A stretch of 64,000 nt of DNA from Bacteroidaceae bacterium. Its GTDB lineage: Bacteria; Bacteroidota; Bacteroidia; Bacteroidales; Bacteroidaceae. The number at the start of each line of letters is the position of its first letter. Position 1 is the stretch's first letter. A program made the translations under genes and the position numbers. Below the pieces are notes generated by a model. That model was not told the DNA's origin. It did no database searches and saw nothing but the letters and a program-made list of their open reading frames with translations. The stretch covers positions 124,001-188,000 of the forward strand of contig JAGAAS010000029.1 of assembly GCA_017615125.1 (NCBI GenBank), read 5' to 3'. Positions 9,002-48,590 of this stretch are shown here, one piece after another.

Positions 9002-9044
9002 AAAAATAGAGGTTGTCCCACATTTTGAGACAACCTCTATTTTT
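9002..9044. terminator. Bidirectional intrinsic terminator after the GIY-YIG-like gene
   Basis: A stem of 16 pairs is formed by AAAAATAGAGGTTGTC (9002-9017) and GACAACCTCTATTTTT (9029-9044), with loop CCACATTTTGA. The run of T after the stem and A before it allows termination on both strands. Its centre coincides with the palindrome described in the next entry. Confidence 0.8.
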
Positions 9045-9049
9045 CTTTG
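9014..9049 (+). promoter_or_regulatory. Promoter of the ASCH gene with palindromic operator
   Basis: Palindrome TGTCCCA-CATTT-TGAGACA spans 9014-9032; a -7-like box TTTCTTTG is at 9042-9049, exactly 9 nt after it. The same palindrome, with the same 9-nt spacer to a -7 box, occurs at 10615 and 48555. No TTTG -33 element at normal distance is present apart from the palindrome itself, which occupies that position. Confidence 0.55.
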
Positions 9050-9088
9050 CATCGTGATTCGTAAGTTTAACTAAAAAAAGAATGCAAA

Positions 9089-9613
9089 ATGAGTAAGTTC
9101 ACCGAGATGACAGACGAGCAGTATTTCGCTGCACATGACGAATTTATGAAAAAGTTTGGTGCTCCTAAGTGCGAGCCCATTGAGGTTTTGGACTTGATTA
9201 TGCGCAGGGAGTTTGCGGAAGAAATTCTTAGCGGCAAGAAGAAAGTAGAGGTTCGCAATGGAACAGACTTTTATATGAATCGCCTTACTGACAAAAAAGT
9301 TGACAAGTGGATGACAGAACATCGTGATGACACAGAAATGGATATTGATGCTTTCAATGAGTTCATGTGTGCTACCCGCCCAGTATTGAATATACACTTT
9401 CATGACTATAACAAATCATGGTTCTTAGATGTAGAATGTTTAGAGAATGCATTGATTGATTTGACAAGGCAGAATATAGAGGCTTTGCAGCAGCGCTTCG
9501 ACTGTCATGAGTTTGACGAGCTTCTTGCTGACTTTGAAAGTCGTAACGACGATAATCGTCCGCTTTTCTATTACTTTGTCTTGGGAGATGTATTGGGAAC
9601 AGATTTGCACTAA
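9089..9613 (+). CDS. ASCH-domain protein
   Basis: The protein is 174 residues. Residues 33-55 contain [23 protein letters not shown], split here as [16 protein letters not shown] then GKKKVEVR, matching the ASCH signature GxKxxExR. ASCH domains have a PUA-like RNA-binding beta-barrel; some members are amidohydrolases acting on modified nucleosides. A conserved beta-strand region VLNIHFHDY follows near residue 108. No signal peptide is seen. It is transcribed from its own promoter that overlaps the upstream terminator and is followed 41 nt later by an unknown gene, probably co-transcribed. The exact role is unknown. Confidence 0.65.
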
Positions 9614-9654
9614 TTTGTAAAATTGCTGATATTTTAAATAATAGAACTATAGCT

Positions 9655-10455
9655 ATGGGTTGGGATGTTGTAGAAATTGGCTTAAGGCATAACTTGCCAG
9701 TTAAGGATCCTTTTGCAACAGCACAAGAAGTTGCAAAAAGAATGAAAAGGAATATCAGGCTCGGATATAGTAATGATTACGAGTATGACATTGCGAATAA
9801 CGTCGTAAGCGGAGTGAAAGATTATGAATTTATTGAACTTGGGAGGTATGAGGAAAATGAATCTGAAGACTTCCTGCGGATGACAATCTCTAATTATCAA
9901 GCACATCAAATACTGGAATCTGTAGGTATAGACAAACTGCGCCAAGCAACCTTTGTCGATGATATTGCTGAGTTTATACTTAGTGATATCGAAGAACCTT
10001 TCGAGTTATACGAGATAGAAGATGCTGATACTTATATAAGAATTTTCAAAGAGAATGTAGACCTTGATGTTTATGTAGAAGGAAGATGGCGCGTTTGGGA
10101 AGATGCATTTCTTCCTTCAAGTCCACATCGAGAATGGTTGCGCAATTATCGGATGCAAATATATAATCGAGCGAAATTATTTGGCTGCCAAGAGGTGATT
10201 ATCTGTTCTGACCAAGGCCCAACAGAAGAGATTTACGATAAAATGAACTTTTCGGCAGATAAACTCAAGGAATATGCCCATTCTTTCCAGTATCTAAAAG
10301 ATTCCAATTGGGTGGAAGAATGGGAGAAAGAAGAGTGGAAAAAGAATGCAAAGCATATTATGTTCTCATCGTATTTCCAAAATCAACTTGATTTGTCTGG
10401 GGAAGATTTCGTAGAAGTTATCTATGATGACTTTAGCGATATTGATACCCCATGA
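9655..10455 (+). CDS. Hypothetical protein, 266 aa, acidic
   Basis: I do not recognise the family. The product begins MGWDVVEIGLRHNLPV, is rich in acidic and aromatic residues (DYEYDIANNVVSG, RWRVWEDAFLP, NWVEEWEKEEWKKN), and has no transmembrane segment or signal peptide, so it is probably cytoplasmic. It reads as an intact, AT-rich gene with a normal ATG and ends in a clear stop 41 nt after the ASCH gene pattern began. The central sequence GCQEVIICSDQGPTEEIYDKM suggests an alpha/beta fold strand-helix unit. Its neighbours are ASCH, GIY-YIG-like and WYL genes, suggesting an island function linked to nucleic acid, which is context only. Confidence 0.6.
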   Translation: MGWDVVEIGLRHNLPVKDPFATAQEVAKRMKRNIRLGYSNDYEYDIANNVVSGVKDYEFIELGRYEENESEDFLRMTISNYQAHQILESVGIDKLRQATFVDDIAEFILSDIEEPFELYEIEDADTYIRIFKENVDLDVYVEGRWRVWEDAFLPSSPHREWLRNYRMQIYNRAKLFGCQEVIICSDQGPTEEIYDKMNFSADKLKEYAHSFQYLKDSNWVEEWEKEEWKKNAKHIMFSSYFQNQLDLSGEDFVEVIYDDFSDIDTP

Positions 10456-10614
10456 ACAGAGTTTTTTGCTGATGTTCAGAACGTTCAATATGCGGGGGGA
10501 TGTACCACGAAAGTGGAGCCTCCCATCTCATTTTTAGGAAGATGTTCCACGAATTAACCGCGTTGAACGGTCATTACGGTCGGAAAACGAACTTTTTTAC
10601 ATTTTTCTCTTGCT
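10456..10614. other. Gene-free spacer before the structured RNA locus
   Basis: AT-rich spacer after the 266-aa gene. It contains a short hairpin near 10494-10530 (GGGGGGATGTACCAC to GTGGAGCCTCCC) without a clear T run and no coding frame I can support. Confidence 0.4.
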
Positions 10615-10650
10615 TGTCCCACGATTTGAGACAACATTCAACTAATTTTG
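10615..10650 (+). promoter_or_regulatory. Promoter of the structured RNA with palindromic operator
   Basis: Palindrome TGTCCCA-CGATT-TGAGACA (10615-10633) is followed, after a 9-nt spacer, by the -7 box TAATTTTG (10643-10650). This is the same geometry as at 9014-9049 and 48555-48590. Start of transcription is expected near 10657. Confidence 0.6.
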
Positions 10651-10656
10651 CAGCGT

Positions 10657-11055
10657 CAATTGGTCATAAACGGGCGCGATAAATTCAAGCTGCACCAATC
10701 TGATATGCCAGGATGTCGGCGAGACGGCGCGAGAATTTCAAGCTGCCCTTCTTGGCATTGGTTGAAGACTTGCAAGTCCCTGTAAGTTTCCTACCGCCCC
10801 AGTAATTCATAGGACATCTATAGGTAAACGACCTACCGTCTTATGATGTCTGGTTGGATGGCGCGAGTAGAACTACGATATATGGTAACGGAAAAACCCT
10901 AATAGGGATAGTGGAACAGTTCGAATCTGTCGCTCGCGTCATCCTTTTAAGAAACAAAAACGCCATCGACGCTGGTGGGCGATAACTACCAGACAGGGAG
11001 GTTCTTGTCCTACCGCCTAAATCAGCTCTGCTTCGGCAGGGCTGATTTGATTTAG
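10657..11055 (+). ncRNA. Candidate structured non-coding RNA, about 400 nt
   Basis: Downstream of a good promoter is a stretch with no supported reading frame but many helices. ACCAAT and TGCCA (10694-10711 region) pair with TGGCATTGGT near 10753. GGACATC (10812-10818) pairs with GATGTCT (10845-10851), enclosing TAGGT-AAACG-ACCTA. GGATGGCGCGAG (10856-10867) pairs with CTCGCGTCATCC (10933-10944) around a tRNA-like T-arm ACAG-TTCGAAT-CTGT (10916-10930). A 13-bp stem with a TTCG loop (11019-11048) closes the locus but lacks a strong T run. A block around GGCGCGA and TTCAAGCTGC is present twice (10673-10693, 10726-10746). It matches neither tmRNA, RNase P RNA nor SRP RNA that I can recall. Confidence 0.4.
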
Positions 11056-11093
11056 AATCTATGAATTTCACTTTTCCTGTCTGAATAGAAGTA

Positions 11094-11288
11094 TCATCCA
11101 TGAACTCCGTACTTTCTCGTTAATTCTTTCCATTTTTCCGTTATTTCCTCTGTGTCATTGTCAAACTGAAAAACCACCTTTCTCGCTCCTTGATGTTCTA
11201 TCGCGTACTTTCCGTAATTTACTATATTGTTATGACTTTTTGTTACCTTCGTTTTGTTGGTAAATCTAAAGCCCAAAACTATCTGCAC
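11094..11288 (-). CDS. Small hypothetical ORF, possibly decayed
   Basis: A 64-codon frame starts at GTG (11286-11288) and ends VHG-stop. The part ARKVVFQFDNDTEEITEKWKE looks like real protein. The same frame continues upstream to an ATG near 11334 (MIKPKTV), but an in-frame TGA lies between. A good minus-strand promoter precedes that ATG: TATCTTTG on the complement of 11343-11350 with TTG about 20 nt before it. The leader can fold into a long hairpin (AAGCCCAA with TTGGGCTT). It may be a pseudogene, a GTG-started small protein, or chance. Confidence 0.25.
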   Translation of the reverse strand: MQIVLGFRFTNKTKVTKSHNNIVNYGKYAIEHQGARKVVFQFDNDTEEITEKWKELTRKYGVHG

Positions 11289-11554
11289 CTCGCCGCTCCG
11301 ATTGCGGCAGCCTCAGACAGTCTTGGGCTTAATCATGACTCTGCAAAGATAATAAAAGAATTAAAAAACAACAAATAATTAAGAAGATTTAGCAAAAAAT
11401 GGCGCAGGAAATAACAGTTGCGAGAGAAGGCGGAGCCACCTGTTGCAACAAGAAAGCCTCTAAATAAACAGGTTTTTGAAAAAAATACTACACACTACAC
11501 GATTTCATACGTATGTTGCTGAAAGGCAACGGCTTTTCTTTTGACAGCCTTGAA

Positions 11555-11598
11555 ATTACTACACGATTACTACACAATTATTACACGATTACTACACG
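11555..11598. repeat. Tandem 11-bp array (4 units)
   Basis: Units ATTACTACACG, ATTACTACACA, ATTATTACACG and ATTACTACACG start at 11555, 11566, 11577 and 11588, so the period is exactly 11 bp. It lies at the head of a stack of phased arrays. Confidence 0.85.
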
Positions 11599-11721
11599 AT
11601 TTAGACAATGACGATATGGCTCTTCGAGCCTACGATAGCTATAGCGATAGCAAAGGCGGGAAAAAAACGATAACAATGACGTTACGGCACTTTGTGCATA
11701 CGATGACAAAAAGGAACCTAC

Positions 11722-11814
11722 GTACAAGGCATTTGTACCATGAGTACAGTCCTTTTGTACTGCGAGTACAGGGCTTTTGTACTGAGAGTACAAAGCATCT
11801 GTATTGTCGGTACA
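11722..11814. repeat. GTACA palindrome array, 22-bp period
   Basis: GTACA occurs at 11722, 11744, 11766, 11788 and 11810; TTTGTAC occurs at 11732, 11754 and 11776 with a degenerate copy at 11798. Each unit reads TTTTGTACTGCGAGTACAGG, an imperfect palindrome. The same array type is found at 55680-55750, and both are preceded by related GACGATA(C/T)GGC leader sequence. Confidence 0.85.
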
Positions 11815-11876
11815 GATTGCGTATGACTCGCGTTTTCTTTTGTTCCTGGGAGTTTAATTTTTCAATGGGAGTTTAT

Positions 11877-11974
11877 CAACGCGTTGGGACACCTTTATCA
11901 ACGCGTTGGGACACCTTTATCAACGCGTTGGGACACCTTTATCAACGCGTTGGGACACCTTTATCAACGCGTTG
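11877..11974 (-). repeat. CAACGCGTTG array, 22-bp period, locus A (5 units)
   Basis: The 10-bp palindrome CAACGCGTTG occurs at 11877, 11899, 11921, 11943 and 11965. Linkers are GGGACACCTTTAT. Outer ends GGGAGTTTAT and ATAAACCC are inverted. On the lower-numbered strand direction it has the tail CGAAGTAAAAG, related to CGAAGTCAAAG at the other three loci (20852, 31285, 47486). Confidence 0.9.
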
Positions 11975-12044
11975 ATAAACCCACGAAGTAAAAGAATAAT
12001 AACGAATGGAGAAGAAGGTGCATCGTTTCCTTTCAGAGGATGCC

Positions 12045-12086
12045 TGAAAAAGAAAGCGCCACGCTCGGACAGGAGCGCGGCGCTTA
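12045..12086 (-). terminator. Intrinsic terminator of the ruvA-sprA-thioredoxin unit
   Basis: AAGCGCC (12054-12060) pairs with GGCGCTT (12079-12085), extended inside by CGCTC/GAGCG. Read on the minus strand the stem is followed by TTTCTTTTTC. It sits just after the thioredoxin stop codon. Confidence 0.8.
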
Positions 12087-12098
12087 TCAGTTCGCCTT

Positions 12099-12590
12099 TC
12101 AAGGCACGAGGAGCACTTCGTGGATGGCTTCCTCGTAGGAGTCCTTGGGCATTGCGCCTACGGCCTTCTTCGGCAGTCCTTTCATCGGGATGAAGAGGAC
12201 TGTGGGAATGCTTCGGACGCCGAAGAGCGCTGCCAGCTCGGGCTGTCGATCGATGTCTATTTTATATACATCCACCTTGCCTGCATACTCGGAAGCAAGC
12301 TGTTGAAAGATGGGAGCCACTTGTTTGCAAGGCCCGCACCAGGTAGCGTAGAAATCGATGACGGCTGGTTTGTCGCCCGCATACACCCATTCCTTCGGAT
12401 GTGCTTCGAAGTCCATCACCCGCTGACGGAACGTCTCTTTCGTCAGTTCAACGGGAAGGACTTTCTGTGCCTTCTTTGCCGTCAAAGCAGGCACAGAATC
12501 GGAAACGGAAGTAACTTCCTGTGCCTCAGCAAGGAAGGGAAGCAACGACATCAGCACAACGAGGAATAGGGTGAAAAACGTAGATTTCAT
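12099..12590 (-). CDS. Secreted thioredoxin-family protein
   Basis: The 163-residue protein starts with a Sec signal peptide (MKSTFFTLFLVVLMSLLPFLAEAQ). The thioredoxin active site WCGPCK lies near residue 85 within VIDFYATWCGPCK, and the cis-proline strand SIPTVLFI follows near residue 128. It probably acts in the periplasm as a disulfide reductase or isomerase. It is encoded 12 nt after sprA on the same strand and followed by a terminator. The pairing with SprA suggests a role in disulfide handling for exported or type IX secreted proteins, which is inference from position. Confidence 0.9.
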   Translation of the reverse strand: MKSTFFTLFLVVLMSLLPFLAEAQEVTSVSDSVPALTAKKAQKVLPVELTKETFRQRVMDFEAHPKEWVYAGDKPAVIDFYATWCGPCKQVAPIFQQLASEYAGKVDVYKIDIDRQPELAALFGVRSIPTVLFIPMKGLPKKAVGAMPKDSYEEAIHEVLLVP

Positions 12591-12602
12591 ATCTGGGAGA
12601 TG

Positions 12603-15600
12603 TTACTTTGTGAGCGAGAATTTAAGGGACATTCCGAAGTCGTTAGTGGAAGTGGGATAGCTGGAGGTACTTACGACGGGGATGTTTGTCTGGTGATCGA
12701 AATAGGCGCTGAGGGTGAGCATGCGGCTGTAGGCGTAGTCGGCCGAGAGGCTCAGCTTGATAGCGCGGTTGCCGCTCGTTGCCTGCGTGGTAAGGTCCTG
12801 AATGCTGCGGCAAAGGGCGCTCTGATCGCGGAAGGAGAAGTCGGCACGCAGGTTCATGTCGTTGCTCGTCTTCCCGCGCCCCACGGTACGCCCGGCGCCT
12901 AAGATCTTGAGGTTGGTAATCTTGTAGCCGAACCCGACAACGATGTCGTCGGAGCATGTTTCTACCAGCTGAACGGCAGTCATCGAGAGGTTCATGACGC
13001 GAGTCTTCTTGTACTCGAGCTTGGTAGTGAGGTTGTTGAGCATAGTGACGTCAACGCCGATGAGAGGCGAGAACTGCTCGTTGATGCTGACGGAGCCGAT
13101 GTCGAACATGCTGCTGGGGATGGGGTTCCCGCTGATGACATCCTCCACAAAGCCCAAGTCGCCCATATAGGACATGAACGAGCTGTAGGTTCCGAAGGAG
13201 CCGACGGAGTAGACACTCTTGTAGGAGTGATTGATATTCACCGACTTGAAGTATTTCTGGAACAGTTCCAGCTTTGAGAGCCCTCCGTAGGTTATCTTCC
13301 AGTTAGGCAGCATGCTCAGCAACGATGGGAACAACGAGAGGGAAGAGCCCGAGGCGTCCCTACCGCTATATACCGCGAGGAAGGCAGGAATCATCACATC
13401 GGGAGAATACGACGAGACAGTTCCGTTAGATGGATCGAACGTCTGTCCCGACAGGTTGCTGGAAGCCGGATAAGAGGCTCCCGCATACTGCGACTGCACG
13501 CGCTGCTGCATAGCATTAAGGCTGGCGATGAAACGGTCGAAGTACTTCGAAGCATAGCCCTCGCTGCTTCGGCGCGGCTCAAAGGCGCTTCCAATAGTAA
13601 TAGTGGTCATATTGAACTGCCCCGTGCGCGTTTCGGGCATACCTGCATACATGAACTGTACCGTGCGCGAATCGTTCTTCATCCAGTTGCCGTTCACATC
13701 GATCTTGAAGTCCTTCACAGGCTCGAGAGTCACCTTCAGCTGCAACTCTTCGACGGCACTTGACGAAGACGAATAGGCTACAGAGTCGTTCTGCAGGAGC
13801 CATCCGTTGGAGCGTGCGCGGGAAAGGTAGCTGTCGTCCGTCAAGCCGAAAGCGAAATCCCATCCAGGAGCAGCGCCTGCGCCGAGAGTACTCTGCCCGA
13901 AGGCTTTTCCCATCTCGGGCATGAATCCCGGAAGAGCCATCGAGTAGGTATTCTTATACGTGAAGGAAGCGTTGCGCACCATCATAGCAAAGCGCGAAGT
14001 GTACTGCGCTGCTTTGTACCATCCCTGCTCCGACAGCTCGGGCCCAGGAACAACAGTAACCTTAACGGCAGTACTGTCCTTTGCCTTGATGCGGATAGTA
14101 TTCTCGTCCACAACCTTGAACTTAACCTTGTAGGAACGCCCTTCCATCGTACGCACCGATACTTCGGGGCGCTTGCTCTTCAGGCTGTGCTTGATTTCGA
14201 AGGTACTGTCGGGAACGAATTTATATTCCTGCGAGAATTTCTTTGCTTTCTTCTCCTCTTCTTTTCCGTTATTCTTATCGGCTTGCTTGTTGTTCTTATT
14301 TGCCTGATTGTTGGAGGTTGTGGAGGAACGACGCGTGCTTCCGCCAGAAGAAGCAAACTTCTTGTTTACCTCCTTGAGGAAGGGAACATGATTGTAGAGC
14401 GTCTCCAGGTTAGCCTTTCCGTTGATGGTAACAGCACGCTGATTGGAGATATTGTTTCCGTAGGTATGCCCGTTGCTGAGCGTCGCGCCGCGCTTCCAGT
14501 TATATGAGGAGTTGTAGTTTCCGTCAGCTGTGAGCCAGTCAAGGACGGGAATCTTGTCAATCGGCGCCGAGTACGTGGCGCTGAAGGTCTGCTGATGGGT
14601 AAGCGGGCGTCCCATCTGCAGGAGGCTGTAGCGCACGCTGTCTTTCCATATCTCATACTCGTTCGGGTACATAGCGCTGTTGACAGGAGCATAGGGCTCC
14701 TCAATCTCGGCATTCGTGCCCGAGGAGAAGTTGGTCTTCAGATTCTTCGTCATATCCCAGCGGAGCGTCATAGAACGATTCCACAGGAACTCTTGCGAGA
14801 AGCTGACAGGAATACCCGACGAGCCGTAGGAACCTTCCAAATCGCGCATCTGCAGTTCGTAATAGACACGGTTGAGGTCTGTATTGAGGGCTATGCTCTG
14901 AGGAAGCGGGCTGATACCTATCTCGCGCAGAATGTTGAACCAATCCGACTTGCTCTTGATGTTCTTGAAGGGCTCCCAAGGCTTCATCGCTGGCGCATAG
15001 GCATAGGAACCCTGAGCCTTCCAGTTGAGATTATGCTGATAGTCAATAGTGCTTCCTCCGTTATCCTTTGTGCTGCGCGAGTATCCGAAGGAGAAGTTGG
15101 AAGGATCCCAAGGCATCGGCACCTTGGAGGTGATATTCATCTTAATATTTGAAAGAGAGAAGTTGCGGGTTCTCGTCACCTTGTTCGCAATGTTAAGCAA
15201 CGAATCGCGCTCTCTATCGTCTGCCAACGTTTCCATCATCTCGTCCAGATAAAGATCCGTCTCGAAAGGACTATACCGAGGAGAGAGCTTCTCCTGAGAA
15301 ACGGAATAGTAAAGTGGAAGGGAAACCTTGAGCTTTTCCGGGAAGAAGCGTCCCAGATCGAAATTAGTGGTGAAGGAATACTGGTAGAGATTGTCGTCGC
15401 GACGCTGCGAGACGCCCTGCTCCAATCCTCCGAAGCCTGCCGTCTCAGCATGTCCGTTGACATTGACGCTGCCCACATCGGCAAGCTGGACATTCAGCGT
15501 GCTTTGCGCAGCCCATCCTCCTTCGTTCTCAAAGCCCGTAAGGCGGAGCTCATTCACCCAAACTTCGGCAGAACGAGTAGAACGGCTGTTGTTACGAACA

Positions 15601-19997: not shown

Positions 19998-20020
19998 GGG
20001 AAACCGAAATGATGAGTGAT

Positions 20021-38865: not shown

Positions 38866-38873
38866 CCTTCCGA

Positions 38874-39590: not shown

Positions 39591-39630
39591 AAACGGCTCC
39601 TTCTCTACTCAACCCGACAGAAGAAGAAGC

Positions 39631-39807: not shown

Positions 39808-39808
39808 A

Positions 39809-41059
39809 TCAATCTTCTTTATCCGTTTTCAAAATCACCTTGCTCTGCACCGAGCCCAAAGCAAGTCGCGTGCTGAGGATATCGCCCTCGCGTATCTCGG
39901 AAGCATCGCGCAGGACCTTTCCGTTTAGAAGCGTGATGCTATACCCGCGTCGGAGAATGTTCTCGGGAGCCGCGCCTGCCAGCACTTTTTCCACAAGGGC
40001 GACTTTATGTCTCTGCTCCGAGAGGAAGGCTCCCGCTCCTGTCGACATCCTCTGTCGTAGGCGTTCCAGAAGATGCTCCTCCCGCGCCTTACTCAGCGCA
40101 TACGCTGAAGGGATACGCTGCGACAGATATTGCAGGCGCTGATTCTCGCGGGAAATCTTCTCGCGAATGCCGCTACTAATTGCGGCAATATACTCGTCCA
40201 AGCACATCGCCGTCGTCATCGCCGCGTCTATCAGGAACGAGGCTGCTGCCGTAGGTGTTTTCACCCGCGTGTGGGCAACAGCATCCACTACCGTATCGTC
40301 TCTCTCGTGCCCGATACCCGTAATGATGGGCAGCGGGAACTGCGCGCAGTTGGAAGCAAGCGCATAGGTGTCGAAGCCAGCCAAGTCGCTCGTGGCTCCT
40401 CCGCCTCTTATTATTACTACGACATCCCAGCATCCTTCGCTAGAAGCAATAGCGTCGAGCGCCGCGATAATGGATTCTTCCACCTTGTCTCCCTGCATCA
40501 CAGCGGGGAAAAGGCGCGTGTAGAAAACGAGCCCGTAGGTGTTGTTATGCAACTGGTTGCAGAAATCGCCGTAGCCTGCGGCAGTCTCCGAGGAAATGAT
40601 GGCTACCCGCTGAGGAAGCAAGGGCATCGGGAGCTCCTTGTTCATAGTGAGCGTGCCCTCCTCCTCCAGTTGCCGCAGAATCTCCCTTCTCCTGCGGGCC
40701 ATATCCCCCAGCGTATAGGTAGGGTCTATATCCTGCACGAGAAACGACATCCCGTAGAGTTCGTGGAACTGTACCGTCACGAGCAGCTGCACGCTGATGC
40801 CCGCAACGAAGGCCTGCCCCGTCTCCTGCTCGAAGTATCCTTTTATTATCGGTAGCCGATTGGCCCAAACTGTAGCGCGTGCTTTCGCAAGGAGGCTGTT
40901 GTTCTTCTCGTTCTTCTGCACCAGCTCGATGTAGCAATGCCCCGCTGCGTTGACATTCACGCTGCTCATCTCTGCGCGCACCCAGTACTCCTCGTTTAGC
41001 TGCCCCTCGACAACTTTGCGTACTTTGCTGTTTAGCTCGTATAGACTGAATACTTCCAT
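39809..41059 (-). CDS. xseA: Exodeoxyribonuclease VII large subunit
   Basis: The 416-residue protein starts MEVFSLYELNSKVRKVVEG, with the N-terminal OB fold (residues about 1-100) and the catalytic region containing VVVIIRGGGATSDLAGFD and PIITGIGHERDDTVVDAVAHTRVKTPTAAA, diagnostic for XseA. Acts with XseB in DNA repair. It lies 19 nt after mnmA and 1 nt before xseB. Confidence 0.97.
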   Translation of the reverse strand: MEVFSLYELNSKVRKVVEGQLNEEYWVRAEMSSVNVNAAGHCYIELVQKNEKNNSLLAKARATVWANRLPIIKGYFEQETGQAFVAGISVQLLVTVQFHELYGMSFLVQDIDPTYTLGDMARRRREILRQLEEEGTLTMNKELPMPLLPQRVAIISSETAAGYGDFCNQLHNNTYGLVFYTRLFPAVMQGDKVEESIIAALDAIASSEGCWDVVVIIRGGGATSDLAGFDTYALASNCAQFPLPIITGIGHERDDTVVDAVAHTRVKTPTAAASFLIDAAMTTAMCLDEYIAAISSGIREKISRENQRLQYLSQRIPSAYALSKAREEHLLERLRQRMSTGAGAFLSEQRHKVALVEKVLAGAAPENILRRGYSITLLNGKVLRDASEIREGDILSTRLALGSVQSKVILKTDKED

Positions 41060-41078
41060 CGATAATGTCTTTTCGTTT

Positions 41079-42197
41079 CTATTGCTTCAGGCCTTCATGC
41101 TCCACGTATTGTCCTAATCCCTTCTGCGAAGCGATGAAAGCGCCTCCCACGAGGGTTTCTCCCCGATAAAACACCGCTGACTGCCCGGGAGTGACGCCTG
41201 AGGCTTCTCCCAGGAAATGAACCAACGAGAGCCCGGGGGCTACCTCCTTCATCAGCTCGCACGGAATGGGCTTGCTGCGGTAACGTATCCTCACCGTCAG
41301 GGGAGCCTTCTCGCTGCCGTTATCAAGACGAAAGATATCTTCGGGCGTGCCCTCAACCAGCATGTATTCCGTCCTGAGGTCTTGCTCTTCGCCCAGCACC
41401 ACCGTGTTTTTGTCTGCGTTAATGCGGAGAACGAAAGCGGGCTTGCCCAGAGCAATGCCCAGCCCCTTGCGCTGACCTATCGTGTAGAAGGGAAATCCCT
41501 GATGCGTACCCAGCACTCGGCCTTCCTTGTCGACAAACTTCCCTTCGCCGACAGCGGAGTCAATGTCGGGGCGTTGTGCGCGGAGGAAACTGCGGTAATC
41601 CTTCTCGATGAAGCATACTTCCATACTCTCCCCCTCGCGAGCCTTTGCCGTGAAGCCTTTCTTCTCCAGATAGGCTCGGACATCCTTTTTCGTCCATTCG
41701 CCCAGAGGAAACAGGCAGCGCGCAAGCACCTCCTGCGGCAAGCGCCAGAGGAAGTAGCTCTGATCCTTCGTGACATCCGCTCCGCAGACGATGCGCCAGA
41801 TGCCGTTATCCTCGGAGAGCCGCACGTAGTGCCCTGTGGCAATGTGCTCGCAGCCAAGCCTGTCGGCCCAGTCGAGGAGTAAGCGGAACTTGAAGAGCGG
41901 GTTGCACACCACGCACGGATTGGGCGTGCGCCCTTTCAGGTACTCCCCGCAGAAATAGTCAACCACCCTCTCGCGGAACATTTCCCGCCCGTCAGCCACA
42001 TGATGCTCGATGCCTAGGAAGAGGGCACACTCGCGAGCCTCGACAACGCTGAGCGGCTCGTCGCCCGTCATCTGCGAGGGGACGTCAAACATGCGCATCG
42101 TAAGTCCAACGACTTCGAAGCCCTGTTCCTGCAGCAGCATGCACGTTGCCGTGCTGTCGATGCCGCCGCTCATTCCTACCAACACTTTTCTTTTCAT
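41079..42197 (-). CDS. mnmA: tRNA-specific 2-thiouridylase MnmA
   Basis: The 372-residue enzyme makes 2-thiouridine at the wobble position of tRNA Lys, Glu and Gln. The PP-loop is GMSGGIDST near residue 8; the catalytic cysteines lie in [13 protein letters not shown] and MEVCFIEKD. The ATG at 42197 is preferred to the one at 42212 because a minus-strand -7 box (complement of 42214-42221, TACCTTTG) lies so close that the longer start would be nearly leaderless. Confidence 0.95.
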
Positions 42198-42251
42198 CTT
42201 GCGAGTGTTCATGCAAAGGTAATCCTTTTTCTTTATTCTTGAAAGTTTTTT

Positions 42252-42335
42252 CCTTCTCGAAAAAAATTTTTTCTTTCTACATCTCGCCGGCTTCTTTCTT
42301 CATACGGCGAGATTCCTTCTCCATAATTTTTTCCC
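42252..42335 (+). repeat. 21-bp CYTTCT module array, locus 4
   Basis: CCTTCTCG, CTTTCTAC, CTTTCTTC and CCTTCTCC start at 42252, 42273, 42294 and 42315, exact 21-bp spacing. Linkers ATCTCGCCGGC and ATACGGCGAGA are partly complementary to each other. Between the divergent mnmA and MATE genes. Confidence 0.9.
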
Positions 42336-42409
42336 CTCCTTGCACGATGTTTTTCGCCCGGAAGAAAATTTTCCTTCGTGCAGTCGTCTCGCAAAACGAC
42401 GAAAATTAC

Positions 42410-42417
42410 TACCTTTG
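42410..42417 (+). promoter_or_regulatory. -7 box of the MATE gene
   Basis: TACCTTTG, 42 nt before the ATG. The leader holds a small hairpin CCCC-TTCG-GGGG followed by A residues. Confidence 0.5.
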
Positions 42418-42459
42418 CACCCAAACAAGCCCCCTTCGGGGAAAAAAGACCTGAGGACA

Positions 42460-43848
42460 ATGTCAGAGAAACATATACCCACCGAGCTCGGCACCGAGAA
42501 AATCAGCAAGTTGCTGAAGAAATACGCTATCCCCTCCATCGTGGCGATGATTGCCTCGTCGATATACAACATCGTCGACAGCGCCTACATCGGGCACGGA
42601 ATCGGGCCTATGGCCCTGAGCGGCTTGGCGCCCACGTTCCCGCTGATGAACATCTCTGCAGCCTTCGGGGCGATGGTAGGCGTGGGAGCATCGACAATGA
42701 TCTCGGTACGCTTGGGGCAGAAAAACTACGAGTCGGCGCAGCGCTTCCTGGGCAACGCCTTCGTGCTCAACATCTTGGTTGGCATCATCATCGCCGTCGT
42801 CACCCTCTCGTTCCTCAACCCTATCCTCCTCTTCTTCGGAGCTTCGGAAAACACGCTGCAGTTTGCCCGCGAATACATGTTCTGGATACTTCTCGGCAAC
42901 GTTATCACGCATCTGTACTTCGGCTTTAACGCCATTCTGCGGAGCACAGGGCATCCCGACGTCGCGATGAAAGCCACCATCCTGACGGTTGTCGTCAACT
43001 GCATCTTGGATCCGATTTTCATCTTCCATTGGGGACTTAACCTAGGCATTAAAGGCGCCGCTATCGCCACTATTCTCAGCCAGAGCATCTCCCTCTGCTG
43101 GCAGCTGCGCGTGCTGACTGACAAGCGCGAGCTCCTTCACCTCCATCGGGGCATCTACCGTCTTGAAGGGCGCATCGTAAAGGAGATTCTCTCCATCGGC
43201 ATCTCCCCGTGCCTCATGAACCTCGCTGCCTGCATCGTCGTTATCTTCGTGAACCGCGCCCTTCTTACCTACGGCGACGACTATGCTGTGGGCGCCTTCA
43301 GCGTTATCCACAAGGTGACGTTCGTCTTCGCCACACTCGTGTTCGGCATGAATCAAGGCATGCAGCCTATCGCGGGATACAACTACGGAGCGCAGCGCTA
43401 CGACAGGGTGATGGGCGTGCTGAGGCTGACTCTCCTGTGGGCGACAGCGGCAATGACGCTCGGATGGATTGTCTGCGAGTTCCTGCCGCGCTATGCCGCC
43501 CTCATCTTCACTACCGACGAGCAGATGCTCACGGAAATCGTCCGAGGCATGCGCATCAACGCCCTCGTCTTCCCCCTTATCGGCTCACAGATGGTTATAG
43601 GCAACTTCTTCCAGGCTATTGCCAAGCCTTGGACGTCTATTTTCCTCTCCCTCTCGCGGCAGTTCCTGTTCCTGCTTCCGTTCCTCCTCTGGTTCCCGAC
43701 ATTCTGGAAGCCAGCCCTCAACGGAGTCTGGTACGCGCTCCCCGCTTCCGACCTTGTCTCGTGCATCACGGGCTTCATCCTGCTGGCTCGTCAGATGAGA
43801 ATATTCAGAAAGCACGTCAACAGCAACCCCGTAACCCCTGCGGCATAA
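42460..43848 (+). CDS. MATE-family efflux transporter
   Basis: The 462-residue protein from MSEKHIPTELG has about twelve transmembrane helices arranged as two bundles. MATE features include the conserved N-terminal IVDSAYIGHGIG near residue 43 and GMNQGMQPIAGYNYGAQ at the start of the second half. These transporters export cationic drugs or metabolites using ion gradients. The frame is open for 40 codons upstream, but that part overlaps the promoter. No specific substrate can be inferred. Confidence 0.93.
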   Translation: MSEKHIPTELGTEKISKLLKKYAIPSIVAMIASSIYNIVDSAYIGHGIGPMALSGLAPTFPLMNISAAFGAMVGVGASTMISVRLGQKNYESAQRFLGNAFVLNILVGIIIAVVTLSFLNPILLFFGASENTLQFAREYMFWILLGNVITHLYFGFNAILRSTGHPDVAMKATILTVVVNCILDPIFIFHWGLNLGIKGAAIATILSQSISLCWQLRVLTDKRELLHLHRGIYRLEGRIVKEILSIGISPCLMNLAACIVVIFVNRALLTYGDDYAVGAFSVIHKVTFVFATLVFGMNQGMQPIAGYNYGAQRYDRVMGVLRLTLLWATAAMTLGWIVCEFLPRYAALIFTTDEQMLTEIVRGMRINALVFPLIGSQMVIGNFFQAIAKPWTSIFLSLSRQFLFLLPFLLWFPTFWKPALNGVWYALPASDLVSCITGFILLARQMRIFRKHVNSNPVTPAA

Positions 43849-43929
43849 CCCATCCACACTTCCCAAATAATAAGTTAACCTAAGAGATACAACCACATCC
43901 TCTCCATATTTATAATAAAGGACATCTTC

Positions 43930-44541
43930 ATGAAAAACCTCATCATCACCATCGGACGCCAGCTGGGCAGCGGAGGACGCTCCGTAGGCAAGCTCCTTGC
44001 CGAGCATTACGGCATCAGCCTCTACGACAAGGCGCTCATCAATCTTGCTGCCGAGCAGAGCGGGCTCGGGAAAGAATTCTTCACGAATGCCGACGAGCAT
44101 GTCTCGCGCTCATCGCTACGCTCGCTCATTACCAGCAGGGGACTCGTCTCCAGCCATTCCAACAGCCCTCTCTCCAACGATGCCCTTTTTCAGGTGCAGA
44201 GCGACGTTATCCGCGAGCTTGCAAGCAAGGAGTCGTGCATCATCCTGGGACGTTGCGCCGACTATATCCTGCGCGACAATCCCGGGCTCATAAGCATCTT
44301 CCTCTCTGCCGACAAGGAAGACCGCCTGAAACGTATTGCCGAGCACGACAACATCAGCATCGAGAAGGCGCGCACTCTTATGGAGCAAGGCGACAAGAAG
44401 CGCGCTACCTATTATAATTACTATACCGACGGCGTTTGGGGAAGTGCTTCCACGTATCATCTTTGCATCAACACCAGCGTGCTGGGCATCAAGGGAACAA
44501 CGCAGTTCCTCATCCAGTATATCGACTCGCGTAACAAGTAA
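43930..44541 (+). CDS. Cytidylate-kinase-like protein
   Basis: The 203-residue protein begins MKNLIITIGRQLGSGGRSVG, a P-loop-like nucleotide-binding start, and matches the cytidylate-kinase-like family (IILGRCADYIL, then FLSADKEDRLKRI and a tyrosine-rich YYNYYTDGVWG). Members resemble CMP kinase but often lie beside transporters and are not the housekeeping enzyme; the substrate is uncertain. It is 81 nt after the MATE gene and 23 nt before a phosphoesterase gene. Confidence 0.85.
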   Translation: MKNLIITIGRQLGSGGRSVGKLLAEHYGISLYDKALINLAAEQSGLGKEFFTNADEHVSRSSLRSLITSRGLVSSHSNSPLSNDALFQVQSDVIRELASKESCIILGRCADYILRDNPGLISIFLSADKEDRLKRIAEHDNISIEKARTLMEQGDKKRATYYNYYTDGVWGSASTYHLCINTSVLGIKGTTQFLIQYIDSRNK

Positions 44542-44564
44542 TCCCAAACGCCCCGCCTTCCAAT

Positions 44565-45068
44565 ATGAAGCGCATAGGTTTAATCAGCGACACGCATGCC
44601 TACTGGGACGAGCGCTACGCCCAGTATTTTCGCGACTGCGATGAGGTCTGGCATGCTGGCGACATCGGCTCCCTGGAGGTTGCCGAGAAGTTTGAAGCCT
44701 TGCCCGTCACGTTTCGTGCCGTATACGGCAACATTGACGGCTACGACATCCGCCTACGCTATCCCGAGATAAGACGCTTCACCGTCGAGGGTGTCGAAGT
44801 GCTGCTCAAGCACATCGGAGGCTATCCCGGCAAGTACGACGCCTCCGTGCGCGGCTTGCTTTTCACGCAGCCTCCCAAGCTTTTCGTCTGCGGGCACAGC
44901 CACATCCTGCGCGTCAAATTCGATCCTACGCTCGACATGCTCCACATCAATCCCGGCGCAGCAGGCGTCTACGGCATCCAAGCTGTGCGCACCCTTATCC
45001 GCTTCAATATCGACAAGAGCGACATCAAAGATCTTGAAGTCATCGAGCTGGGAAACAGGAAAAGCTGA
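44565..45068 (+). CDS. YfcE/MJ0936-type metallophosphoesterase
   Basis: The 167-residue protein has the metallophosphoesterase motifs in order: SDTHAYWD (residues 8-15), HAGDIGS near 35, GNIDG near 55 and CGHSH near 110, with HINPGAAG after it. Small enzymes of this group hydrolyse phosphodiesters in vitro; the natural substrate is generally unknown. Cytoplasmic. It is probably co-transcribed with the cytidylate-kinase-like gene. Confidence 0.92.
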   Translation: MKRIGLISDTHAYWDERYAQYFRDCDEVWHAGDIGSLEVAEKFEALPVTFRAVYGNIDGYDIRLRYPEIRRFTVEGVEVLLKHIGGYPGKYDASVRGLLFTQPPKLFVCGHSHILRVKFDPTLDMLHINPGAAGVYGIQAVRTLIRFNIDKSDIKDLEVIELGNRKS

Positions 45069-45211
45069 TTTCTCTTCCTTCTCATTACGGCGTTTTTGAA
45101 AAATAACTTTTTTTCAGAAACCGTCTTTAAACTTTTCCTTCGTACACGAGTCTTAAGTATGTCGTGATTATGCTGAACGACTTGTTTAACCCCTTAAATA
45201 TCTACAACGTT

Positions 45212-45616
45212 ATGAAGAAAATTCTTTTAGCCCTTGTAGCAATGACATTGACTCTTGGAGTCTATGCACAAGGCCCGCAGCGCGGGGAACGCCGTGAGTT
45301 CAAACCTGAAGAGATGGCTACCCGCCAAGCTCAGCGCATCAAGGAAGCTTGCAACGTCAGCGACAAGCAGTACGAGCAGCTCTACAACCTGTTCATCGAG
45401 CAGGGAAAGGCTATGCAGAAGCAAATGCAGGCTGGCGAAGGCCAGAGAATGAGCCGCGAAGAGATGCAGAAACAGTTTGCAGAACGCGAAAAAGCCATCA
45501 AGGCTATCCTTACCGAAGAGCAGTGGACTGCTTACGAGAAAATGCAGCAGGAACAGCGCCAGCGTCGCGGCGGTGGCCCGGGACGACAAGGTGGACAGCG
45601 CCCTCCGCGTCAGTAA
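45212..45616 (+). CDS. Small periplasmic protein, DUF4890/Spy-like
   Basis: The 134-residue protein has a signal peptide (MKKILLALVAMTLTLGVYAQ) and a charged helical body with Gln/Glu/Met-rich helices (MATRQAQRIKEACNVSDKQ, ILTEEQWTAYEKMQQE) and a basic, Gly/Pro-rich tail (RRGGGPGRQGG). This is the make-up of DUF4890 and of Spy/CpxP-type chaperone-like proteins. Role in envelope stress is inference. The ATG at 45212 is set by the signal peptide. Strong terminator downstream. Confidence 0.8.
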   Translation: MKKILLALVAMTLTLGVYAQGPQRGERREFKPEEMATRQAQRIKEACNVSDKQYEQLYNLFIEQGKAMQKQMQAGEGQRMSREEMQKQFAEREKAIKAILTEEQWTAYEKMQQEQRQRRGGGPGRQGGQRPPRQ

Positions 45617-45623
45617 GAAATCA

Positions 45624-45669
45624 GAAGAACGCACTCAGCCGAACAAGCGAGTGCGTTCTTCTCTTTTTT
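45624..45669 (+). terminator. Strong intrinsic terminator
   Basis: GAAGAACGCACTC (45624-45636) pairs perfectly with GAGTGCGTTCTTC (45649-45661), then TCTTTTTT. Confidence 0.9.
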
Positions 45670-45716
45670 ATCGGAACAAGAATCTGCCTATGCGTTTTCC
45701 ATAAGCAGATTTCTTT

Positions 45717-47333
45717 TTATCTGCCCGTAAACTGCAGGTAATGGAAATCGCAGAGCGAGGTGTCAGGCTCGCTTGCCGTGAAGCGGAGATAAAGGGCGTG
45801 CTTCCCCTTCAGCTTGCGTGCCTTGCGTACTCTCACCTTCAGCTCCGTCATCTCCTGATGCTTGCGCTTGCTTATCTTCACACGCCCGAGAAGAATGCCT
45901 CCCTTCTCCTTCCAAGGGCTGTCGGCAAAGACTTCGATGCGCCCGCTCACGCCCTTCGGCACAACCTGCAGACGAAGCTTTATCCACCGTTTATGGGATA
46001 AAGCGTCGAAGTTGAAGTACTTGTAGCCGACGACAGAGCCGCTGGTGTTGTTGACGACAGGATTGTGATTGATACTCAAGTCATAGACATCTTCCAGAGA
46101 AGTCGGCTCCACGCCGTCTTCAAGGTATTGTGCCTGCACATAGGAACCCGTATAGAGGAAGTTAGGATAGTCGTTCGTAGCTCCTCCGGGACCCGTGTAG
46201 TAGCAAGCGATGCCTGCCGAATAGCGTTGCAGAGGATCAAGCCCCCCGAGCTGAAATCCCTCCGACGTGTACTCTCCTTCCGAGATTACCACTTTTCCTC
46301 CAGGCCCTTCCGTCACATCCACCGTGATGGGAGCCACCATAGCCTGTCGGGCAAACTCATCGGTACCCGACTGCCGATGATAGAACACATACCATTGCCC
46401 TTCTATCTCCGCAATGCTTCCGTGCGTGTTGCCCGTAGGCGTAGCCGTGAAGATAGTTTTTCCCTGCAAGTCGGTATCTCTGGCACGCGCGTCGATAATC
46501 GTTCCGCCGTAGACGAACGGACCGAGAGGAAAGTCGCTGTAGGCGTAGGCAAGCGTGTAGTTCGTATCTTTCAGCCCGAATTCTCCGTCGTAGGTCCAGC
46601 GGCTGTAGATGAACACATACTTATCCTTTATCTTCCGTATGGAAGAAGCCTCGAAGAAGCGGAAGTCCCCCTCCTCGTGCAGATGTGAAATCATCCCCTT
46701 CACGATTTGCGTGCCGGGCTTCACGGTAGCCATCGTCTCGGGATCGAGTTCAGCTCCGAACGACTCCTGGAATCCCCAGTAGCCGTAGACTCGACCGTCG
46801 TCGTCGACGAATACAGCCGGATCGAAGCGGAGCACGCCTTCCGTCTCCTGCGGATTCGTCTTGCTCCAGTTGCAGATGCTGAAAGGCCCGTCGGGACGGT
46901 CTGACTTCGCTACCGTTCCCTGCCTTCCGCCGTTCTGAGTGTTCGGATAGAGGTAGTACGTCTTCTTGCCCGTCTGCGGATCGGTCCTGACAGCCACATC
47001 GGGCGCATACAGCAAGTCGCCTTTCCCTTCGGCGTTGAGCAGATTGCCGTTGGCATCCGTCCTTGACTCAAAGATAACGCCGTCGTAACGCCAGCGGCTC
47101 AGGTCTTCCACAGGAGCCGACCAGACGACTTGATCCAGCCCGCAGTAAGCCGTGCGAAGATTGTCGTGCGAGCCGTAGACGTACACTCGGTACTTCCCCG
47201 GATTGTCGGGATCTTCAAACACATAGGGTTCTCCGTCAGGAATATGCTCCCACAACGGAAGGTAGGGATTCTGCGCACCCAGCGACAGCCCCGTGAGGGC
47301 AAGCAACAAGCAAGCGGTTCTTCTTTTCTTCAT
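45717..47333 (-). CDS. Glycoside hydrolase family 43 protein with C-terminal CBM6-like domain
   Basis: The 538-residue secreted enzyme starts with a signal peptide (MKKRRTACLLLALTGLSLGA). The five-bladed propeller region has GEPYVFEDPDNPG and VYGSHD near residue 40, LYAPDVAV near 110 and RFFEASSIRKI near 220, matching the GH43 aspartate/glutamate sites. Residues after 400 form a jelly-roll-like domain of CBM6 type. Expected to act on arabinose- or xylose-containing plant glycans in the periplasm or at the surface. The ATG at 47331-47333 is set by the signal peptide. Confidence 0.9.
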   Translation of the reverse strand: MKKRRTACLLLALTGLSLGAQNPYLPLWEHIPDGEPYVFEDPDNPGKYRVYVYGSHDNLRTAYCGLDQVVWSAPVEDLSRWRYDGVIFESRTDANGNLLNAEGKGDLLYAPDVAVRTDPQTGKKTYYLYPNTQNGGRQGTVAKSDRPDGPFSICNWSKTNPQETEGVLRFDPAVFVDDDGRVYGYWGFQESFGAELDPETMATVKPGTQIVKGMISHLHEEGDFRFFEASSIRKIKDKYVFIYSRWTYDGEFGLKDTNYTLAYAYSDFPLGPFVYGGTIIDARARDTDLQGKTIFTATPTGNTHGSIAEIEGQWYVFYHRQSGTDEFARQAMVAPITVDVTEGPGGKVVISEGEYTSEGFQLGGLDPLQRYSAGIACYYTGPGGATNDYPNFLYTGSYVQAQYLEDGVEPTSLEDVYDLSINHNPVVNNTSGSVVGYKYFNFDALSHKRWIKLRLQVVPKGVSGRIEVFADSPWKEKGGILLGRVKISKRKHQEMTELKVRVRKARKLKGKHALYLRFTASEPDTSLCDFHYLQFTGR

Positions 47334-47366
47334 GTCGATACTTTTTCGTTTCAGATAATGACGATG

Positions 47367-47397
47367 CAAATATACGATATTCCCAGAACTTTGCAAG
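47367..47397 (-). promoter_or_regulatory. Promoter of the GH43 gene
   Basis: On the minus strand, CTTG (complement of 47394-47397), a 19-nt spacer and TATATTTG (complement of 47367-47374), 33 nt before the ATG. Confidence 0.6.
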
Positions 47398-47485
47398 TTT
47401 TTCAGCCACATTATCTCATCGCCAAGCAGAATCCGGCCCTTCGCTACAGACTCTTCTGGATGGCTGTTTCCGAAGAGGGGTTGCT

Positions 47486-47539
47486 CAACGCGTTGAGCAA
47501 GGTTACCCAACGCGTTGTGCAACGTTACCCAACGCGTTG
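47486..47539 (-). repeat. CAACGCGTTG array, 22-bp period, locus D (3 units)
   Basis: CAACGCGTTG at 47486, 47508 and 47530. Flank CCCCCGAAGTCAAAG at 47545-47559 is identical to locus C; the other flank (CTTCTGGATGGCTGTTTCC, 47452-47470) is a diverged form of the locus B/C tail. It sits 67 nt upstream of the second WYL promoter. Confidence 0.9.
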
Positions 47540-47599
47540 AGCAACCCCCGAAGTCAAAGAAAAAAACTGTATTATTCGTTGTTTTTCATAAAAAAGCCC

Positions 47600-47607
47600 T
47601 ATATTTG
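47600..47607 (+). promoter_or_regulatory. -7 box of the second WYL gene
   Basis: TATATTTG, 20 nt before the ATG, in the sequence context shared with the first WYL gene at 7272. Confidence 0.55.
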
Positions 47608-47627
47608 TGACTGAAATCATACCGCCT

Positions 47628-48536
47628 ATGAAAACGTACACGAAGTTCAAGGAATACATCTGGCTTGTCAACACCATTCACGAAGCCAAATCTATCACGC
47701 TGGCTGAAATAAACCGGAAATGGGTGCTGACGGAGATGAGCGAAGGGGAAAAGATGCCCCGCACCACTTTCTACCGCCACAAGTGCGCTATAGAGGATAT
47801 CTTCGGCATCATCATCGACTGCGACAAGAAGAACGGCAACAAGTATTTCATCAACAACGACGAGGTTTTGGACGAAGAGACGGTACAGAACTGGATGATT
47901 TCCACGCTGAGCGTAGGCAACCTCGTTGAGGAGAGCCAAAGCCTGCACCATCGGATTCTTCTCGAGCACACGCCCTCGGGCGGAGAAAAGCTTCGTCAGG
48001 TCCTCAAGGCGATGAAGGAGAGCCGATGCTTGATGATTACTTACCGACGCTACAGCGCTCCCGCAGGAAGCAGCTTCACGATAGAGCCCTATTGCGTAAA
48101 GCTATTCAGCCAAAGGTGGTATCTGCTGGGAAAGCTCTCCAACGGCTTCTTGGCTACTTTCTCTTTCGACAGAATAGAAAGCATCGATTTGTTGGATTTG
48201 ACGTTTGAGCTGCCGGAAGACTTTGATGCGGCTTTTTATTTCAAGGATAGTTACGGCATTGTGGTAGACAACAAAGCCAAGCTGGAGCGCATCGTTCTTC
48301 GGGCTCATGGATTGGAGAAATACTATCTGCGCGACTTGCCCTTGCACCCTTCTCAACAGGAAATAAACACAAAAGAAGAATATGCCGACTTCGAGCTGAG
48401 ACTTCGTCCTACCACAGAATTCAAGGCAGCCCTGTTGTCGCGAGGACAATGGATAGAGGTTCTTGAGCCCCAGACGCTTGCCGACGAAATCGTCGAATGG
48501 CATCAGAAATCCATCGAACGTTACCAGAAAAAATAG
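47628..48536 (+). CDS. WYL-domain transcriptional regulator, island 2
   Basis: The protein from MKTYTKFKEYIWL is 302 residues. Its N-terminal DNA-binding-like region and the WYL domain (QRWYLLGKL near residue 160) align over the whole length with the protein at 7300; the first 17 residues are identical and so is ALEDIFG-type text (CAIEDIFG). Seven extra codons upstream belong to the promoter region. It heads the second accessory island and is followed 94 nt later by a HIRAN gene whose promoter carries the shared palindrome. It may be autoregulated or cross-regulate island 1, which is inference. Confidence 0.87.
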   Translation: MKTYTKFKEYIWLVNTIHEAKSITLAEINRKWVLTEMSEGEKMPRTTFYRHKCAIEDIFGIIIDCDKKNGNKYFINNDEVLDEETVQNWMISTLSVGNLVEESQSLHHRILLEHTPSGGEKLRQVLKAMKESRCLMITYRRYSAPAGSSFTIEPYCVKLFSQRWYLLGKLSNGFLATFSFDRIESIDLLDLTFELPEDFDAAFYFKDSYGIVVDNKAKLERIVLRAHGLEKYYLRDLPLHPSQQEINTKEEYADFELRLRPTTEFKAALLSRGQWIEVLEPQTLADEIVEWHQKSIERYQKK

Positions 48537-48554
48537 GTAAAAAAATCCTTCATC

Positions 48555-48590
48555 TGTTCCATGATTTGAAACATCCCCTCCTTTACTTTG
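48555..48590 (+). promoter_or_regulatory. Promoter of the HIRAN gene with palindromic operator
   Basis: Palindrome TGTTCCA-TGATT-TGAAACA (48555-48573), a 9-nt spacer, then the -7-like box TTACTTTG (48583-48590). Same design and spacing as 9014-9049 and 10615-10650. Confidence 0.6.

Follow-up and report, generated by a model that had tools for sequence, protein, structure and literature searches.

The question raised by the 64,000-nucleotide window analysed here (Bacteroidaceae bacterium, GenBank assembly GCA_017615125.1, contig JAGAAS010000029.1, positions 124,001 to 188,000 of the forward strand) is what a palindrome of 19 bp does in three of its promoters. The promoters lie in two gene islands and, as the initial annotation had pointed out, each island opens with a gene for a paralogous WYL regulator. 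Both regulators, here WYL1 and WYL2, contain Pfam WYL and WCX domains. We propose, with a probability of roughly 0.6, that a clade of WYL activators of the Bacteroidaceae uses the palindrome as its operator and would thereby switch on adjoining immune and repair operons.

The geometry of the sites and their -7 boxes can be read directly from the DNA. The palindromes are located on the forward strand at 9014–9032 (site 1, TGTCCCACATTTTGAGACA), 10615–10633 (site 2, TGTCCCACGATTTGAGACA, the consensus form) and 48555–48573 (site 3, TGTTCCATGATTTGAAACA, a TGTTYC variant 22 bp past the last sense codon of WYL2). Each is followed after exactly 9 nt (N9) by a -7-like box, at 9042–9049 (TTTCTTTG), 10643–10650 (TAATTTTG) and 48583–48590 (TTACTTTG), so that both coordinates and spacing agree with the initial annotation. 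The full TAnnTTTG box is present at site 2 only; the boxes of sites 1 and 3 each differ by one base from that of site 2, and TTTCTTTG recurs at one site apiece in the compared stretches L104, L146 and L147. The window was also correctly described as having no further copy, since an exact-copy search gave just the three sites. When up to three mismatches were allowed, the window contained 25 matches (the three sites counted on both strands) against 15.4 ± 4.5 in shuffled sequence, and 2 of 100 shuffles reached at least 25. The whole genome (3,030,049 bases, 87% complete) has no exact copy beyond the three, and a reversed-pattern control gave 0 exact matches. The relaxed pattern TGTNYCR-N5-TGRNNCA-N9-TNNYTTTGC, designed after a position-weight-matrix scan had already revealed a site on contig C53, has four genome matches, the three window sites and the one on C53 (reversed control, 0). 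Some 0.4 kb downstream of this fourth site is a WYL paralogue that is more distant (41% identity to WYL1). Of the four WYL genes that Pfam detects in the genome, three have sites nearby.

The claim of a fixed spacing rests on two tests, because in the larger collection of sites described below N9 was imposed by the search pattern. Firstly, the bare palindrome was searched without the box in 61 genomes. In the genus of the window it occurred in 14 copies in 9 of 19 genomes (own genome included), and all 14 had a -7 box with at most one mismatch at exactly N9; 22 bare palindromes were found in other genera or families, and of the 18 inspected one had a box at N9. Secondly, stretches were chosen by their WYL protein alone, and palindromes with 6 of 7 pairs and an N5 loop were counted ahead of exact TANNTTTG boxes at spacings of 2 to 25. 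In the 37 WYL-selected stretches (34 distinct places) there were 13 palindromes at N9 and 0–2 at each other spacing, whereas the 23 stretches with distant WYL genes had two at N9 and no peak.

The anatomy of the sites was examined in 93 contexts. These remained from 99 candidate sites after L157, L169, L171, L172 and L173 (chance or another type) and identical contexts had been dropped; L175, also on the drop list, had no sites, and L168 1282 among the 93 is probably wrongly oriented. From 5' to 3' the contexts consist of A/T-rich tracts, TGTCCCACGATTTGRGACA, nine loosely conserved bases and TANNTTTGCA. The A/T tracts are about 10 bp apart and peak near -31, -21 and -11 relative to the palindrome. 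Flanks vary between sites while operator and box persist, and the centre CGATT is conserved in one orientation, which gives the site a polarity relative to the promoter. The sites centre 19 bp ahead of the -7 box. Their logo reads TAnnTTTG, which is given as the -7 consensus of the Bacteroides primary sigma factor in excerpts of PMC7366714. A TTTG at 18–22 nt was present at 0 of the 93 sites (the motif excludes it by construction) versus 28 of the 159 further TANNTTTGCA promoters that these stretches contain, where it peaks at 19–20. This fits the earlier view that the palindrome occupies the place of the -33 element, since the motif leaves no room for the TTTG that other promoters have.

Outside the window the motif is rare. 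Allowing one mismatch, TGTCCCACGATTTGRGACA-N9-TAnnTTTGC is present in 52 of 399 sampled genomes of the family, in 12 of 30 genera, and its reversed control gave 8 matches in the 399 genomes. A search of 84,980 species genomes of bacteria and archaea for the strict exact motif yielded 40 stretches; every one of the 40 record titles names Bacteroidales (Prevotellaceae, Bacteroidaceae, Muribaculaceae or Bacteroidales), with ruminant hosts mentioned in many. Carriage of the motif by phages was considered, and the strict pattern gave 0 stretches in viral contigs. When 295 genomes of the order were searched with an exact pattern, three matched: that of the window itself, and G044 and G517, which have palindromic variants. 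The pattern is insensitive, because it detects just one of the three window sites. Genome G039 has a degenerate site between a WYL and a HIRAN gene, and in G035, where the WYL gene is followed by a tRNA, no site was seen there.

Statistically, the motif is linked to WYL genes. Among the 399 genomes, 48 have a WYL1 relative at E ≤ 2.1e-90, 52 have the motif and 27 have both (odds ratio 16.8, Fisher p = 4e-15, uncorrected for kinship). A WYL gene at least 40% identical is contained in 26 of 72 stretches fetched by the motif. These stretches amount to 1.09 Mb and cover most motif matches; left out were matches in G026, G081, G117, G133, G238 and G331 and one in G400 (chance-like), as well as the bare palindromes of other genera, save one in G021. 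A same-strand site stands 12–165 bp past the last sense codon in 21 of 67 WYL open reading frames (ORFs), and in 18 of 41 among close relatives. The position weight matrix scored above 20 bits in 21 of 30 WYL1-selected stretches versus 2 of 23 distant ones, counts that are partly circular as the matrix was trained on sites partly lying in the scored stretches. Three distant relatives (L041, L042, L046) have TGTCCCG-N5-TGGGTCA at N9, 16 bp past the WYL gene, and the geometry therefore seems to outlast the operator letters. The motif is thus rare, tied to -7 boxes and WYL-linked, and not a common sequence unrelated to WYL loci or promoters.

Operator letters also covary with the WYL proteins. 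When operator letters are mapped onto a tree of 59 WYL proteins (38 of which have a site), position 4 is explained by 8 changes, compared with 15.0 for shuffled labels, and 0 of 300 shuffles (uncorrected for kinship) were as low. Positions 7, 15 and 16 likewise track the tree (1, 2 and 0 of 300 shuffles as low). Within WYL residues 1–109, mutual information with operator position 4 is highest for residues 46, 53 and 49, which sit in ARATFNRHKDAI, presumed to be the recognition helix of the helix-turn-helix (HTH). All four TGTT operators pair with the helix TF(Y/F/H)RH(K/R)(C/M/I)AI; of these four, L190 branches on the tree apart from window WYL2, L145 and L150. Site 3 (TGTTCCA..TGAAACA) belongs to the TGTTYC type, and in WYL2 the residues N and D are replaced by Y and C, as with all four TGTTYC operators; therefore each window paralogue probably reads its own operator variant, and cross-talk between the two is possible. 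The idea of one regulator common to both islands is weakened, because the pairing of site 3 with WYL2 is an operator/HTH type of its own. One unit comprises WYL1 and sites 1 and 2, and the other, of the TGTTYC type, comprises WYL2, site 3 and the HIRAN gene. The WYL proteins had been named as the obvious candidates; linkage and covariation point to them as the probable binders, with the reservation that some genomes with sites lack a close WYL gene.

Several observations weigh against our proposal. The cut-off of E ≤ 2.1e-90 was set after the table had been inspected, and the tree shuffles ignore kinship. Almost half of the WYL genomes (21 of 48) lack the motif at this stringency; among 12 of these inspected, seven (G032, G068, G105, G122, G127, G241, G299) have variants near the WYL gene and five none in the stretch. 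Conversely, 25 of the 52 motif genomes have no close WYL gene, and 13 of these 25 are chance-like or have another operator type. A profile re-search of the other 12, 10 of them less than 90% complete, found no WYL gene in G008, G018 and G237 and distant ones only in G106 (9 matches), four genomes that are 72–84% complete; in G011, G193 and G176 fragments were among the WYL matches, and the remaining genomes have distant members. With respect to placement, 39 WYL ORFs have a site within 3 kb, and the best one is downstream of the gene in 26 of them and upstream in 13; in L180 and L181 it immediately precedes the WYL gene, the arrangement expected of an autoregulator. As for the covariation, operator position 5 does not follow the tree (58 of 300 shuffles), residues 39 and 71 outside the helix rank closely behind the top three, and the change of T-operator and helix amounts to two independent pairs (p 0.5).

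Comparison with known WYL regulators suggests how such an operator might work. A WYL-WCX profile matched the solved structures of PafBC (1e-12), DriD (2e-11 to 5e-11), CapW (5e-4 to 2e-3) and BrxR (0.02), whereas a single-sequence search of the PDB with WYL1 gave no match. DriD of Caulobacter crescentus (structures 7TZV and 9PFQ) is described, in excerpts of a preprint, as a homodimeric WYL activator that is triggered by single-stranded DNA (PMC12340889). At its promoters a site of about 20 bp covers a poor -35 at a constant distance from the -10 in aligned promoters, and the DNA-binding domains straddle sigma-4 so that the protein anchors the polymerase (PMC12340889). The sites studied here resemble this arrangement of a 20–21 bp pseudo-palindrome over the -35, a fixed distance to the -10 and a poor -35, and the WYL-WCX profile match adds to the likeness. 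They have a palindrome of about 20 bp at a constant distance (14 of 14 at N9, and the sole peak in WYL-selected stretches), a poor -33 (0 of 93, built into the motif), the -7 element of the Bacteroidota primary sigma factor, and Pfam WYL and WCX domains above cut-off in both window WYL proteins. As far as the excerpts go, DriD differs in its operator letters (ATACGAC-N7-GTCGTAT), phylum and sigma type. Window-type sites further differ in their strong -7 box and in many local copies beside defence operons, and a trigger by single-stranded DNA is hypothetical here.

The passages on SiwR of Mycobacterium smegmatis place an imperfect palindrome of 19 bp between the WYL gene and its neighbouring operon, which SiwR activates under genotoxic stress (PMC10693628). 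Length and position of the palindrome are alike; however, SiwR serves a single local operon of DinB/YfiT-like genes not concerned with defence, and its palindrome spans the -10 to -35 region. Mycobacterial PafBC, the best profile match, is in the part of the literature covered a WYL activator of DNA-damage genes that works with the housekeeping polymerase, but it is a heterodimer, and the likeness concerns the protein profile. Gene pairs of YafY/WYL and EVE have been reported, with no operator in the passages of PMC7641849. Among the matches listed (titles and beginnings of abstracts), no publication announced this operator or a Bacteroidota WYL regulon.

We infer binding by WYL proteins, activation and a nucleic-acid trigger. 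A WYL dimer would bind the 19 bp over the would-be -33 place, 9 nt from the -7 box, and the bound protein would recruit RNA polymerase with the primary sigma factor to a promoter lacking a -33 element, as DriD does in Caulobacter. Each WYL gene would control its neighbouring operon and, in some cases, additional ones in trans; for the window this would mean WYL1 acting at sites 1 and 2 and WYL2 at site 3. Phage attack or DNA damage would probably turn the targets on, because these include many defence and DNA-repair genes.

Activation is favoured because the sites match the DriD/SiwR group, and repression is the main rival. WYL proteins could bind the palindrome and repress in the manner of CapW and BrxR, with release on phage infection, which we consider unlikely yet the most serious of the alternatives. 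Passages of PMC9122588 and PMC9122601 describe CapW and BrxR as defence-linked WYL repressors with palindromic operators of 19–27 bp; like the present proteins they are WYL regulators adjoining defence systems. A dimer bound over the -33 region would block the polymerase as well, and a site immediately precedes two of the WYL genes. However, the operators of CapW overlap the -10, and the first box of BrxR lies between promoter and brxR (PMC9122588, PMC9122601), whereas the centre of our sites is 19 bp before the -7 box and the best site follows the WYL gene in 26 of 39 cases (in L180 and L181 it is directly upstream). Moreover, a repressor would not need an exact spacing, yet N9 stands alone; promoters lacking the -33 would be weak unaided; and the profile best matches the structures of PafBC and DriD, both DNA-damage activators, and less well those of CapW and BrxR.

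It is less probable still that another regulator binds the palindrome and that WYL genes are merely frequent neighbours in defence islands. The sites without a close WYL gene in G106, G008, G018 and G237 would be explained in this way, and WYL genes of the BrxR type are known from defence islands, according to the passages on these. Against this, N9 peaks in stretches with a close WYL gene and not in those with distant ones, and the operator letters follow the WYL tree and the HTH.

The inverted repeats might instead act as RNA hairpins, either terminators or processing sites. At site 1 the palindrome lies within an 18-bp perfect inverted repeat, read directly at 9000–9046 on the forward strand and followed by T-rich DNA, of which a shorter form (AGAGGT..ACCTCT) is present in G012. 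This repeat may also end upstream transcripts. As a general explanation hairpins are very improbable: few other sites have extended arms and most of those listed lack them, a hairpin needs neither the one-way CGATT centre nor the N9 box, and with the -7 box downstream of the hairpin transcripts should start beyond it. Chance, or a functionless repeat element, is scarcely credible, since the reversed pattern yields so few matches and operator and box stay while flanks differ, even if some of the 52 boxed-motif genomes (e.g., G304 and G026) look like chance.

If WYL proteins indeed activate at these sites, the genes behind them indicate what is switched on. The following account relies on mechanically predicted genes, some of which are not real genes, and the scanned proteins were picked for size and promise from 90 predicted downstream ORFs. 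Of 30 downstream proteins scanned, 22 had a Pfam family and eight none. All 10 chosen proteins had a PADLOC match, some just to general helicase or restriction models, and of four further ones one matched, via a general UvrD helicase; given the selection, these counts do not measure defence enrichment. Among the chosen proteins the sites thus do co-locate with phage defence systems. Three CRISPR-Cas loci are included, in which the names of the follow-on cas ORFs were given from their starts and positions. In L136 cas9 begins 374 nt past the box, followed by cas1-like and cas2-like ORFs. In L145, where cas12a is followed by cas4-, cas1- and cas2-like ORFs, 17 bp separate the end of the WYL gene from the site; in L151 this distance is 18 bp, and cas3 is followed by cas5-, cas8- and cas7-like ORFs. 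Other genes behind sites encode an SNF2 helicase matching DISARM DrmD (L121), an HKD-SNF2 protein (L138), an AbiP2 reverse transcriptase (L159), an AIPR/AbiU protein (L119, 512 nt from the site), a GmrSD_N protein (L118, 361 nt) and HsdM_N (L144, 237 nt). A UvrD helicase with PD-(D/E)XK (L134) has an AddA-like look, and a PD-(D/E)XK protein (L132) an AddB-like one. Furthermore, there are an AAA_5 protein (L152, 337 nt), an ADP-ribosylglycohydrolase (L154), an S24 peptidase (L102), a T5orf172 protein (L104), a serpin (L146), RtcB (L156) and a DnaB_C protein with a metallophosphatase (L155), as well as HIRAN and ASCH-labelled genes. Further downstream ORFs, in L126, L166, L107, L167, L106, L150, L160 and L147, have like starts, judged by the starts alone. 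In the case of cas9, AIPR, GmrSD, AAA_5 and HsdM a long distance separates gene and site, and there may be another element in between.

Tentatively, this WYL clade could be an immune alarm, in which infection or DNA damage gives rise to a nucleic-acid signal and the dimer responds by binding a portable operator-promoter cassette ahead of unrelated defences. If so, type II, V-A and I-C CRISPR-Cas, DISARM-like, DRT, restriction and repair systems would share one kind of trigger and be low in peace time. Little is known about what turns on defence systems, least of all in Bacteroidota. Having an operator of fixed geometry makes members of the regulon findable by sequence, including unknown modules such as the HIRAN and ASCH-labelled ones, and it offers a simple test of infection-induced CRISPR-Cas in these gut bacteria.

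Some further features of the downstream regions were observed. The 374-nt gap between operator and cas9 (L136:9682–10092) could hold a trans-activating CRISPR RNA (tracrRNA). S24-peptidase-like genes stand behind the operator at L102:233–1084 (by Pfam), L106:1054–1920 and L150:8611–9504, each with a Bro-N-antirepressor-like ORF further on the same strand, possibly an induction pair. The same small MKTYIEIS-like ORF (92–93 amino acids) occurs past four sites, in L113:9377–9652, L115, L118 and L170, and three of these four stretches contain a WYL gene.

The protein-coding window genes described here all lie on the forward strand. In the first island, WYL1 (7300–8265) is a predicted winged HTH-WYL-WCX regulator (Pfam WYL 4.7e-10, WCX 1.1e-9). 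The HTH of both WYL proteins is deduced from the alignment; Pfam gave no HTH match at their N-termini. An ORF of 230 amino acids between WYL1 and site 1 (8303–8995) matched PADLOC PDC-S57 (1.5e-13) and no Pfam family. The first gene past site 1 (9089–9613, 174 amino acids) carries the ASCH label of the initial annotation and has no match in Pfam or PADLOC; homologues 66–81% identical are present in L104, L130 and L168. The same module contains an ORF of 266 amino acids (9655–10455), again with neither Pfam nor PADLOC match, with homologues 70–71% identical in L104 and L130, which also contain a WYL gene and sites. In G012, relatives of WYL1, the ASCH-labelled gene and the 266-amino-acid gene are 83, 81 and 71% identical, and the WYL gene there precedes two sites; in G401 the values are 69, 76 and 70%. 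Rfam detects an FopS small RNA upstream of WYL1, at 7105–7175 (RF04319, 63.3 bits).

Of the three targets assigned to the sites by the initial annotation, the HIRAN gene is upheld by Pfam, the ASCH label lacks such a match, and the structured RNA past site 2 is weakly supported. This candidate RNA (10655–10950, forward strand) has a fold z of -2.15, with 4 of 200 shuffles equally stable. In G009 the same promoter precedes a sequence 86% identical to the first 78 nt of this RNA, which is present in 2 of 399 genomes overall. Assignment to a known RNA family was set aside, because Rfam gave no family at gathering score and nothing meaningful at E up to 5, and just these two genomes contain it. 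Within it there are three similar GGCGCGA units, two of them with TTCAAGCTGC within a few bases downstream, and a tRNA-like GTTCGAATC is found close to the 3' closing stem; ARAGORN detects no tRNA.

In the second island, WYL2 (47628–48536; Pfam WYL 9.1e-13, WCX 3e-7) likely starts at ATG 47628 rather than at GTG 47607, because the leader then matches that of WYL1. No more than two bases separate the GTG, which is the listed start, from a TATATTTG box. The first gene past site 3 (48631–48978) encodes the HIRAN domain (Pfam HIRAN 4.1e-11; PADLOC PDC-M03B 1.2e-13), and its homologues stand behind sites in other genomes. Upstream of WYL2, at 47480–47550 of the window, there are three CAACGCGTTG(A/T)GCAA units.

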